Of a stretch of 41,400 nucleotides of DNA, positions 4,038 through 15,389 are shown piece after piece (the first letter of the stretch is position 1; the number at the start of each line of letters is the position of its first letter). The position numbers and the translations under genes were made by a program. Under the pieces are notes generated by a model, which did no database searches, had not been told where the DNA came from, and was given only the letters and a program-made list of their open reading frames with translations. The DNA comes from an uncultured bacterium (GTDB taxonomy: Bacteria > Bacillota > Clostridia > Oscillospirales > Oscillospiraceae), in assembly GCA_947643715.1 (NCBI GenBank), contig CANRXB010000022.1:1-41400 (forward strand). Reading direction: 5' to 3'.

Positions 4038-4314
4038 GCAAGGCCGCGCTAGTTGGGGAGTCAGCGGTGCCCTGTACCTGCAACCCGCTACAGCAGGGAT
4101 GAATCCCGGCCCCCGGAGGCAGGATGTGCCGTCTGCCCCATATAAGCAGCGATGACGGACCGGTCCCGCGCAACGCGGCCCCGTGAACCGTGTCAGGCGG
4201 GGAACCGAGCAGCACTAAGCGGACAGCCGCGTGTGCCGCGGGGCCGCCGGTCCTGAGCCGGCTGTATGGGTAACGGGCATAGTCTGTCCTTCAAAGGCCG
4301 GTGCGCGGTCTTGT
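4038..4314 (+). ncRNA. ffs: Signal recognition particle RNA, large Bacillus type
   Basis: The 5' Alu-like region, with GGTGCCCTGTACCTGCAA and a following CAGCAGGG...GAATCCC, matches the Bacillus scRNA closely. Domain IV is clear: GTGTCAGG (4190-4197), a CGG-GGAA-CCG stem-loop with a GNRA tetraloop, and AGCAGCACTAAG. The 3' part repeats the scRNA pattern GTGCCGCGGGGCCGCC...GGTGCGCGGTCTT. The ends pair: GGCCGCGC (4042-4049) with GCGCGGTC (4303-4310). The RNA is therefore the long form with an Alu domain, binding Ffh and targeting nascent membrane proteins. Its position just before dnaX is the standard Firmicutes arrangement. The ends are estimated from homology and pairing, to within about 10 nt. 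Confidence 0.93.
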
Positions 4315-12723: not shown

Positions 12724-15312
12724 TCATCTGTTTTCGATGGTCCGGCGTATCTCCGCCTCCACCTGCCCCACCTCATACTCCAGTTCGGCGGCAGACATGC
12801 GTGTGGCCCCATGGCCCAGGATGATCAACTGCTCCAGCCCGTCGGAGGTAGCCACGCGCACCCGGTGCTCCCGGCGTTCCTTGGTCAGCGCGTAGGTAGT
12901 CTTTTCGATATACATGTCCGCTGTCTCCGCTTCCTTGGTGTACACCACGTATACCTCACCCTCCCGCTGGACGCTGCCGGGCCCCCCTTTCACCTTGTAG
13001 GCGTCGAACACCACGATGACGCGGCATTTTTTCCATCCCTGGTAGTTGCGCAGGCGGTGGATGAGCTGCGCCCGGGCGCCGTCCAGGTCCTCCCGGGCGA
13101 TGGAGCGCAGCGCCTCCCAGGCGTGGATGATGTTATAGCCGTCCACCAAAAGGTAGTCCTCCCCGGTCCGGGCCTTGGGCTCCTTCCAGGGCTTCGGCTT
13201 CGTGGGCGCGGCTTTGGGCGCGGACCGGAACGCGTGGGGTCTGACCGGGCCATAGGTCTGGCGGAAGATGGCCTCCAGCTCTTTGTCCAGCGCCGTCCGG
13301 GACTCGTAGCTCATGGCCGGACGGCGCACGGCGGGCCTTTCCTCCTGGGCCTCGCCTTGGGGCCTCCAGCCGCTGTCGAGGTGCATATGGGCGCGCACCT
13401 CGTCCCAGGGCACGTTCACGCCCGCCCCGTGTGAGCAAAAGACCGATCCGGCGGGAGCGTCCACGTCCCGCTCCGGGTCATAGGCGATAACCTCGATCGC
13501 CGTCTGGGCGTCGTGACAGGGGCGGTATCCCTCCACCACGCAGGACAGCCGCCCCCGGCCCTGGGTATATGCGGCCACCTCCGTCCAGTATCCCCCCAGC
13601 TCGGACACCGGGACGCTGCCGGTGAGGACGGCGGTCTCCCCCGCCCCCTCCGGCGGGCGGAGCTCAGCGCCCATCCGTTGGAGATCCGTCATGGCGCGGC
13701 CCATGCTGCCGGTAGGCGCCTCCAGCCGGAAGGAGTACCACGGCTCCAGCAGGATGCTTTTGGCGCTCATCAGGCCCTGCCGCACTGCCCGGTACGTGGC
13801 CTGACGGAAATCACCGCCCTCGGTGTGCTTGAGATGGGCCCGCCCGGTGAGCAGGGTGATCTTCATGTCCGTGATGGGCGAGCCGGTGAGCACCCCTAGG
13901 TGTGTCTTTTCCATCAGGTGGGTGAGCACCAGCCTCTGCCAGTGGCCGTCCAGCTCGTCCTCGGAGCAGACGGTGTCCAGCACCAGCCCCGCTCCCCGTT
14001 CCAGCGGCTCCAGCAAAAGGTGGACCTCGGCGTAGTGGCGCAAGGGTTCGAAATGGCCCACCCCCTCCACCGGCGCGGCGATGGTCTCCAGGTAGACGAT
14101 GCGCCCCGGGCCGAAGGACACTACCTGCCCGAAGCGCTGCTCCATCACATGGGAGAGGACCTCCAACTGCACTTCCCCCATGAGGTGGAGCGAGATCTCG
14201 CCCAGAGCCTCGTTCCACTCCACCTGGAGCTGCGGATCCTCCTCCTCCAACTGCCGCAGCCGGGCCAGCAGGGTGTGGACGTCCCCGCCCGCCGGAGGCA
14301 GCACCTGATAGGACAGCACAGGCCCCAGTTCAGGGCCTGTCCAGTCGTCCTCAGCGCCCAGGCCCTGGCCCACCTGGGTCCGACTCAGGCCGGTCACCGT
14401 GCACACCGTCCCCGCCGGGGCCGACTCCGCCGGGGCGTACCTGGCTCCGGAATACAGCCGGAGCTGTGTCACCTTCTCCGACCAGTCCGGCCCATCCACC
14501 ATGTCCCGGACCTTCAGGACGCCCCCGGTGATCTTCAGCCAGGTGAGCCGTTCCCCCTTCTCGTCCCGAGAGATCTTGAACACCCGGGCAGCGAACTCCG
14601 GCTGCCAGGCCGGCTCCAGCGTGTACCGTTCCAGGCCGTCCAAAAGCTCCACGACCCCCTCCAGCTTCAACGCGGAGCCGAAGAAGCAGGGGAACAGCCT
14701 GCGCTGCGCGATGAGGGCGGACAGGTCGCTGTCCGGCAGATCCCCCGTGTCGAGATACCGTTCCATGAGCGCCTCGTCACATAGAGCGGCCTGCTCCAGC
14801 ACCTCTTCCACAGGGCCGGAAAAGTCGGCGCAGCCGTCGGACAGACGCCGGCGAAGCTGGGCGATCAGCTCGCCCCGGTCCGTGTCCGGCTGGTCCATCT
14901 TGTTGATAAACAGGAACGTGGGCACCTGGTGGCGCTCCAATAGCTTCCACAAGGTCTCGGTGTGGCCCTGCACCCCGTCCGCCGCGCTGACGAGCAGCAC
15001 CGCATAGTCCAATACCTGGAGCGTCCGCTCCATCTCGGCGGAGAGGTCCACGTGGCCGGGGGTATCCAGCAGGGTGAGCTGCGTCCCCTTCCAGCTCAGC
15101 CGGGCCTGCTTGGAGAAGATGGTGATGCCCCGCTCCCGCTCCTGGACGTCGGAGTCCAGGAACGCGTCCCCGTGGTCCACCCGCCCCAGCTTCCGGACCC
15201 CGCCGGACAGGTACAGCATGGCCTCGGACAGCGTGGTCTTGCCGGAGTCCACATGGGCCAGCAGTCCTGTGCAGATCCGCTTGACCGGCTCGCCCCCTGA
15301 TCCATCGCCCAT
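12724..15312 (-). CDS. TetM/EF-G-like GTPase fused to a YacP/Rae1-type NYN ribonuclease domain
   Basis: The 862-residue protein has two parts. Residues 1-640 form a translational GTPase of the ribosomal-protection (TetM) type: P-loop AHVDSGKTT (19-27), RGITI (61-65), DTPGH (83-87), NKMD (137-140), then domains II-V, with GDFRQA...LLEPWYSFRLEAP matching the TetM domain IV/V region. After a charged Pro/Lys-rich linker (about 640-716), residues 719-862 form an NYN domain close to B. subtilis YacP/Rae1, a ribosome-associated endoribonuclease: LLVDGYNIIHAW (Asp724), VIVVFDAYKVKG (Asp770), ETADMYIEK (Asp799), VATSDGLEQ (Asp824). I start at ATG 15312 because AAAGGGAG lies 9 nt upstream; a GTG at 15321 touches that site. 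It has its own promoter and terminator. Known: each domain family acts on the ribosome. Inferred: the fusion couples factor binding to A-site mRNA cleavage. Confidence 0.9.
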   Translation of the reverse strand: MGDGSGGEPVKRICTGLLAHVDSGKTTLSEAMLYLSGGVRKLGRVDHGDAFLDSDVQERERGITIFSKQARLSWKGTQLTLLDTPGHVDLSAEMERTLQVLDYAVLLVSAADGVQGHTETLWKLLERHQVPTFLFINKMDQPDTDRGELIAQLRRRLSDGCADFSGPVEEVLEQAALCDEALMERYLDTGDLPDSDLSALIAQRRLFPCFFGSALKLEGVVELLDGLERYTLEPAWQPEFAARVFKISRDEKGERLTWLKITGGVLKVRDMVDGPDWSEKVTQLRLYSGARYAPAESAPAGTVCTVTGLSRTQVGQGLGAEDDWTGPELGPVLSYQVLPPAGGDVHTLLARLRQLEEEDPQLQVEWNEALGEISLHLMGEVQLEVLSHVMEQRFGQVVSFGPGRIVYLETIAAPVEGVGHFEPLRHYAEVHLLLEPLERGAGLVLDTVCSEDELDGHWQRLVLTHLMEKTHLGVLTGSPITDMKITLLTGRAHLKHTEGGDFRQATYRAVRQGLMSAKSILLEPWYSFRLEAPTGSMGRAMTDLQRMGAELRPPEGAGETAVLTGSVPVSELGGYWTEVAAYTQGRGRLSCVVEGYRPCHDAQTAIEVIAYDPERDVDAPAGSVFCSHGAGVNVPWDEVRAHMHLDSGWRPQGEAQEERPAVRRPAMSYESRTALDKELEAIFRQTYGPVRPHAFRSAPKAAPTKPKPWKEPKARTGEDYLLVDGYNIIHAWEALRSIAREDLDGARAQLIHRLRNYQGWKKCRVIVVFDAYKVKGGPGSVQREGEVYVVYTKEAETADMYIEKTTYALTKERREHRVRVATSDGLEQLIILGHGATRMSAAELEYEVGQVEAEIRRTIENR

Positions 15313-15360
15313 CCCTGTCACTCCCTTTCCCGGCCGTCGTCCGAAGTCGATCGCGAATGG

Positions 15361-15389
15361 ATTATATCATAAGTGGGGCCGTTCGTCGA
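15361..15389 (-). promoter_or_regulatory. Promoter of the GTPase-NYN fusion gene
   Basis: On the minus strand TCGACG (15389-15384), a 17-nt spacer and a perfect TATAAT (15366-15361) put the transcript start near 15354, about 40 nt before the ATG. Confidence 0.62.

Follow-up and report, generated by a model that had tools for sequence, protein, structure and literature searches.

The DNA analyzed here, a window of 41,400 nucleotides from an uncultured member of the Oscillospiraceae (GenBank assembly GCA_947643715.1, contig CANRXB010000022.1), carries a gene in which a translational GTPase of the EF-G/Tet(M) kind is fused to a Rae1/YacP-type NYN nuclease domain. The GTPase-Rae1 fusion is real in many genomes, and genome comparisons give good support to the view that the fused protein is the only Rae1 of its genome, moved onto the GTPase in a nearly one-for-one exchange for yacP. 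This replacement of yacP is the main new result, as the architecture itself is already in print. Passages of Atkinson 2015 (PMC4342817) report that "Tet" proteins of ten clostridial species carry a YacP-like NYN domain; these have the identical domain architecture and belong to the same bacterial group. They were viewed there as Tet proteins with an acquired domain, for which rRNA cleavage or resistance was suggested. The missing yacP, the empty slot between rlmB and sigH, the unfused sister group and the linker motif described below are not mentioned in those passages of the article proper, its additional files aside. A limited literature search found no further publication tied to the fusion, which has thus been noticed but little explored in the literature examined.

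The fusion frame lies on the minus strand. The first-pass annotation of this DNA had placed it at 12724..15312 and named no strand; the plus-strand frame across that interval is interrupted by stops. Pfam finds GTP_EFTU, EF-G_D2, EFG_III, EFG_IV, EFG_C and NYN_YacP in one frame, each above its cut-off, and together with the translation this bears out the annotation's claim of a single frame joining a complete GTPase to an NYN domain. The P-loop (AHVDSGKTT, residues 19-27), DTPGH (83-87) and NKMD (137-140) are likewise at the positions it had given. Residues are numbered in the 862-residue form that begins at the ATG, and the gene is made up as follows.

12724 to 15321, minus strand: whole fusion gene, 862 amino acids from the ATG at 15312 or 865 from the GTG at 15321; stop codon at 12724-12726.
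13378 to 15285, minus strand: EF-G/TetM-like GTPase, residues 10-645, comprising the G domain, domains II-V and a C-terminal extension; Pfam matches, block-mean pLDDT mostly >85.
13804 to 13845, minus strand: tip of domain IV (loop III), residues 490-503, GRAHLKHTEGGDFR.
13378 to 13527, minus strand: C-terminal extension, residues 596-645, GYxPCHN...SVFCxHGAGxxVxW...MH, compared by eye.
13159 to 13377, minus strand: linker, residues 646-718, with pLDDT <50 at 655-673 and 692-712.
13249 to 13281, minus strand: short linker motif, residues 678-688, consensus E-L-x-x-I-F-E-R-T-Y-G.
12727 to 13158, minus strand: Rae1/YacP-type NYN nuclease domain, residues 719-862.

The nuclease half matches NYN_YacP with 158.3 bits against a Pfam cut-off of 24.6 (E 2.3e-46) and aligns with residues 2-139 of the B. 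subtilis YacP/Rae1 chains in PDB entries 5mq8 and 5mq9 (E about 1e-26). D724 lies opposite Asp7 of Rae1 and D799 opposite Asp81 (residue numbers counted by hand), the pairing that the first-pass annotation had claimed. D724, N727, D770, D799, E803 and D824 are present in all 79 aligned fusions. The acidic residues matching Asp7 and Asp81 occur in 79/79 fused rows and in the 25/25 standalone rows compared (from 29 standalone loci), and the invariant residues of the fused NYN domain are those of free YacP. The Pfam match, the alignment to Rae1 structures and the residue conservation together uphold the assignment of this domain to Rae1/YacP. B. subtilis Rae1 is described, in the portions consulted of PMC12320835 and PMC6613710, as a translation-dependent mRNA endonuclease acting in the ribosomal A site. 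It shares with the fused domain an NYN_YacP match over most of its length and the invariant acidic residues. However, Rae1 stands alone (its chains in 5mq8 and 5mq9 have 181 residues, free relatives about 170) and is encoded beside rlmB, whereas here the nuclease forms the C-terminal domain of a GTPase whose gene lies elsewhere, and the usual description of a free protein of about 170 residues between rlmB and sigH does not fit it. In one fusion (L024 9638-12724, genome G371) the linker is longer and the DGYN of the NYN active site is changed to DGCN.

Two sets of genomes show that the join is not peculiar to this contig. A scan of named public genomes with the patterns AHVD[AS]GKT and HT[EQD]GGDFR gave 591 relatives, of which the best 80, ranked by similarity to the fused query, were kept; tip conservation in this set is therefore partly by construction, and its fused share is no frequency. 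In 78/78 of the loci checked (L146 and L176 were excluded, as their matches lie at a contig end and start late) a single open frame covers the match and contains both HTxGGDF and DGYN. Carriers include Intestinimonas butyriciproducens, Ruminococcus flavefaciens FD-1, Anaerovorax odorimutans and Fusibacter sp. 3D3. An assembly error that joined two separate halves, the possibility against which the first-pass annotation had hedged, is ruled out by these loci. In a separate set of 20 fusions (that of the window included), found via the NYN half and not via the GTPase tip motif, HT, GGDFR, DTPGH, DGYN, FDAY and TAD are invariant.

To count the fusion we used 393 genomes of the window's class (its named relatives are Clostridia), each at least 90% complete, drawn evenly and including the window's own genome. 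NYN_YacP matches occurred in 250/393 and close relatives of the GTPase half (E 1e-100) in 162/393. Frames were classified in 148 of these 162 genomes, 14 being left unclassified: a frame of at least 780 amino acids in a genome with NYN_YacP was called fused, and one of 640-675 unfused. By this measure 126 genomes were fused, 19 unfused and 3 broken or short, so that at least 126/393 class genomes, spread over 26 family codes and 69 genera, have the fusion. The NYN match itself is among the matches listed for 80 of the 126, in 79 cases within frames of at least 780 amino acids and in one (G062) within a frame of 734; the other 46 assignments rest on frame length plus presence of the domain in the genome. 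One stop falls inside the match in 5/126. A phylum-wide sample of 299 genomes searched at E 1e-150 gave 18 with frames of 857-917 amino acids, 12 of them labelled as outside the window's class, and 3 unfused. Of the 19 unfused class genomes, 13 have a separate NYN and six (G178, G288, G028, G025, G054 and G068) have no NYN_YacP match at all; the association of unfused GTPase with free yacP is weak (13/19 versus 94/231 genomes, p 0.03, uncorrected for ancestry).

Where the fusion is present, free yacP is nearly always missing. No second NYN_YacP was found in the window's own genome, which is 96% complete in 93 contigs. Of the 126 fused genomes only 5 have two or more NYN matches, and only one, G284, has a second full-length yacP. 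We then looked at the usual site of yacP, taking rlmB and the 1.5 kb to either side of it in hand-picked genomes (49 fused, 35 standalone, and G284). Of the 49 fused genomes, 24 have sigH after rlmB and no NYN match anywhere in the stretch, and 25, the window's own among them, have neither sigH nor yacP in reach; yacP lies beside rlmB in 0/49. Among the 35 standalone genomes, 29 show the order rlmB-yacP-sigH, and in 6 neither yacP nor sigH was in reach. Gene order was rechecked for all 24 fused and 27 of the 29 standalone stretches. When oriented, the fused stretches have sigH matches starting at 2215-2823, the rlmB match ending near 2220, whereas in the 27 rechecked standalone stretches the match begins at 2235-2286 for yacP and at 2841-2986 for sigH. 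NCBIfam names sigH in 8/9 of the proteins tried (5/6 from fused genomes); L201 (G039), which matched nothing, was not counted. Fisher tests on the slot are extreme but ignore ancestry and hand picking. The exchange is seen even within one genus (g30), where G047 has the fusion, rlmB-sigH and no yacP, and G206 (7% contaminated) has rlmB-yacP-sigH and no GTPase match. These data strongly support the absence of a separate yacP from fused genomes, a point that the first-pass annotation had raised: one of 126 has a second full-length copy, and the slot is empty in 24/49. The exception, G284, combines the fusion with a full free yacP that has sigH at its side and lies beside rlmB, perhaps an intermediate state.

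The GTPase half has the P-loop, DTPGH, NKxD and domains II-V of an EF-2 superfamily translational GTPase. It had been labelled as of the ribosomal-protection type, a label that it does not sustain. NCBIfam tet_protect (NF012153) is its best model, yet the score is 385.4 bits against a cut-off of 775; six unfused relatives (379-468 bits) and two fused ones (384 and 397) are all below the cut-off too. The EF-G equivalog model TIGR00484 gives 280.7 bits against 659.4. Thus the protein resembles Tet(M)/Tet(O) in its five-domain EF-G-like layout, its similar length and its best NCBIfam model, but differs in identity (about 29%), in scoring below the family cut-off, in the tip of domain IV and in the C-terminal extension, which is common to fused and unfused members and was not seen in Tet(M)/Tet(O) by eye. 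With EF-G and EF-G2 it shares domain order and an aligned tip histidine, H493 (96% of 79 rows), which falls opposite a histidine of the EF-G-like protein of the same genome; the remainder of the tip loop differs, and the EF-G cut-off is not reached.

At the tip, LKHTEGGDF(R) of the fusion aligns with SPVSTPADF(R) of Tet(M), placing Lys495 opposite Tet(M) Pro509, the residue said to contact C1054 in the drug site (PMC8161019, in part). H496, T497 and G499-R503 are invariant in the 20 fusions found via the NYN half, and K495-R503 are conserved at 97-100% per position in the 79-row alignment, whose rows were fetched partly by this motif; the core HTxGGD is also kept in the 19 unfused members compared. 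By these measures the GTPase is a clostridial subfamily of its own rather than a typical Tet(M)-type resistance protein.

The tip bears on whether the fusion is an antibiotic-responsive protection factor, one that frees the A site of tetracycline or a similar drug while the nuclease clears mRNA from drug-stalled ribosomes. The Tet-like domain layout, the choice of tet_protect as best model and the classing of such proteins as Tet in the passages of Atkinson 2015 (PMC4342817) favor such a role. Moreover, the sections consulted of PMC4750697 report that some loop III changes of Tet(M), Pro509 to Ala among them, are tolerated and that an S508A/P509A/V510A mutant can be active. Pro509 is therefore a weak criterion, and drug protection is compatible with the GTPase sequence. 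Despite this we consider the drug-protection role very improbable, given the scores far under the tet_protect cut-off in the fusion and its fused and unfused relatives, the lysine in place of Pro509, the nearest named genes and the scarcity of plasmid copies. Those genes (csp-like, tatD and metG on one flank; MurR/RpiR-like, nagB and nagA on the other, the names csp-like and MurR/RpiR-like resting on below-cut-off matches) include no drug genes, and among the 1280 PLSDB plasmid records that gave a match, query coverage reaches 80% in only 2, one being a 518-kb Monoglobus replicon. The fused form as a mobile resistance gene is unsupported by these plasmid records and by the viral loci, as a pattern-limited search returned 49 of the latter with no match to the NYN half. 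From its sequence the protein is best described as a GTPase-tethered Rae1 variant, not as a proven tetracycline resistance protein.

The expectation that such proteins are already annotated as tetracycline resistance was half right. The one annotated fusion seen, in the Monoglobus pectinilyticus PLSDB record, is called a "translation factor GTPase family protein", whereas an unfused relative does carry the resistance name, so that a tetracycline resistance label can fall on this unstudied GTPase subfamily (one case seen). That relative, L096 5530-7920 on the L. salivarius megaplasmid, is labelled a TetM/TetW/TetO/TetS resistance protein and adjoins rpsN.

The trees are most simply read as one fusion event, probably followed by a few later separations or exchanges. 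In the unrooted GTPase tree the fusions plus the L. salivarius protein form one side of a branch with 100/100 support, and the fusions alone as one clade are weakly rejected (p-AU 0.048). The unfused L. salivarius GTPase, on a long branch within the fused group, fits transfer with nuclease loss; no nuclease relic was found near its gene (best E 0.27). Fused NYN domains group with three standalone NYNs (98/97), of which G209 and G225 are not beside rlmB and G140 is. Rooting the GTPase tree with Tet(M)/Tet(O) gave no resolved order of fused and unfused forms.

An AlphaFold2 model built from 79 sequences (mean pLDDT 88.9, pTM 0.71) has confident GTPase and NYN domains, with the parts of the linker at 655-673 and 692-712 below pLDDT 50. 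A helix predicted with medium confidence at 672-687 holds the linker motif ELxxIFERTYG. The motif is present in most rows of the 79-fusion alignment, is looser in some lineages of the 20-fusion set and is absent from the 19 unfused members compared, so that it was seen only in fusions. The span from W636 to D724 varies between 75 and 159 residues, a tether that would in principle be long enough to reach the A site.

A long and poorly conserved linker is also what would be expected if the halves were independent, the NYN domain doing the job of free Rae1 and the GTPase its own, with fusion serving only to co-localize them near ribosomes or to co-express them. Each half is common without the other, and the L. 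salivarius GTPase sits in the fused group yet lacks the NYN domain. We nevertheless find independence of the halves rather unlikely, since the fusion recurs in 26 family codes and the linker motif is conserved in fusions only.

The reading we prefer, to which we give about an even chance, is that the fusion is the sole Rae1 of its genome, tethered to an EF-G-like GTPase for GTP-controlled sensing of a stalled A site and hand-over to the nuclease. The sequences show the fusion itself, the intact motif residues in both halves, the near one-for-one replacement of yacP and the variable linker; we infer that the protein binds ribosomes, has mRNA as its substrate, is controlled by GTP and hands over the A site. 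The fusion likely acts on ribosomes, delivery of the nuclease to the A site is plausible, and the nuclease may be gated by GTP. In outline, the GTP form would bind the factor site of a ribosome with an empty A site after stalled elongation, where the domain IV tip (KHTEGGDF) would probe the decoding center. GTP hydrolysis would withdraw domain IV, and the NYN domain, kept close by its tether, could then enter the A site and cut the mRNA. The cut mRNA would be degraded and the ribosome rescued. A hand-over would be needed because Rae1 and domain IV of Tet/EF-G-type factors are assigned to the same place, the A site, a steric problem that the first-pass annotation had not raised; the overlap of Tet-type factors with that site is described in the consulted part of PMC8161019.

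Several observations weigh against this reading. Domain IV would collide with Rae1 if the two occupied the A site together, and a pTM of 0.71 leaves the interdomain geometry unsettled. The variability of the linker and the separate occurrence of GTPase and nuclease speak against tight coupling, and the GTPase also has a function apart from the nuclease, because 6/19 unfused cases lack any NYN_YacP match in the genome. No conserved gene neighborhood hinting at a pathway was seen among 63 loci. The counts on the exchange of fusion and yacP are uncorrected for shared ancestry, and the genomes of the slot test were hand-picked.

The neighborhood of free yacP bears on another role, maturation or degradation of rRNA or tRNA, with the GTPase docking on ribosomes or their precursors while the NYN domain trims RNA, which is close to the suggestion of Atkinson 2015. 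The gene normally adjoins rlmB, a named 23S rRNA methyltransferase gene, and a passage of PMC6613710 reports that loss of yacO (rlmB) or rae1 suppresses a B. subtilis efp mutant, placing both in the same pathway. We regard an rRNA or tRNA role as quite unlikely, given the description of B. subtilis Rae1 as a translation-dependent mRNA endonuclease and the retention in the fused NYN of the residues that are invariant in free YacP.

To return to the tethered Rae1 reading, the apparent replacement of free Rae1 by the fusion in many Clostridia suggests that these bacteria couple the cutting of mRNA on ribosomes to a factor driven by GTP. To our knowledge, the route of Rae1 to the A site and its choice of stalled ribosomes are unsettled. 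A Rae1 tied to a translational GTPase, with the free copy dropped, points to a GTP-driven step and offers a single protein for testing it. A bolder extension, which we hold only tentatively, is that about a third of the sampled class genomes have a GTP-gated, mRNA-cutting ribosome factor in which the linker motif docks or holds the nuclease until the GTPase switches. Eukaryotic no-go decay uses a recognition GTPase plus an endonuclease; the fusion, if it works in this way, would be a one-polypeptide bacterial counterpart.

Some further features were recorded. PADLOC gave no match, and the fusion as a defense system was set aside. Three unfused relatives (L205, L206 and L233), 44-50% identical, lie near the ends of predicted virus contig stretches and are possibly host genes. 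The largest other cluster of neighbors (15 of the 63 loci) resembles ABC transporter ATPases by eye and is scattered on both sides. A promoter-like site lies upstream of the fusion gene:

15361 to 15389, minus strand: TCGACG, 17 nucleotides, TATAAT, with TG before the second hexamer; a consensus match only.

Rfam at gathering thresholds found no RNA leader at the fusion gene; its one match in the window was a distant large bacterial SRP RNA at 4044-4308 on the plus strand (RF01854, 195.9 bits).

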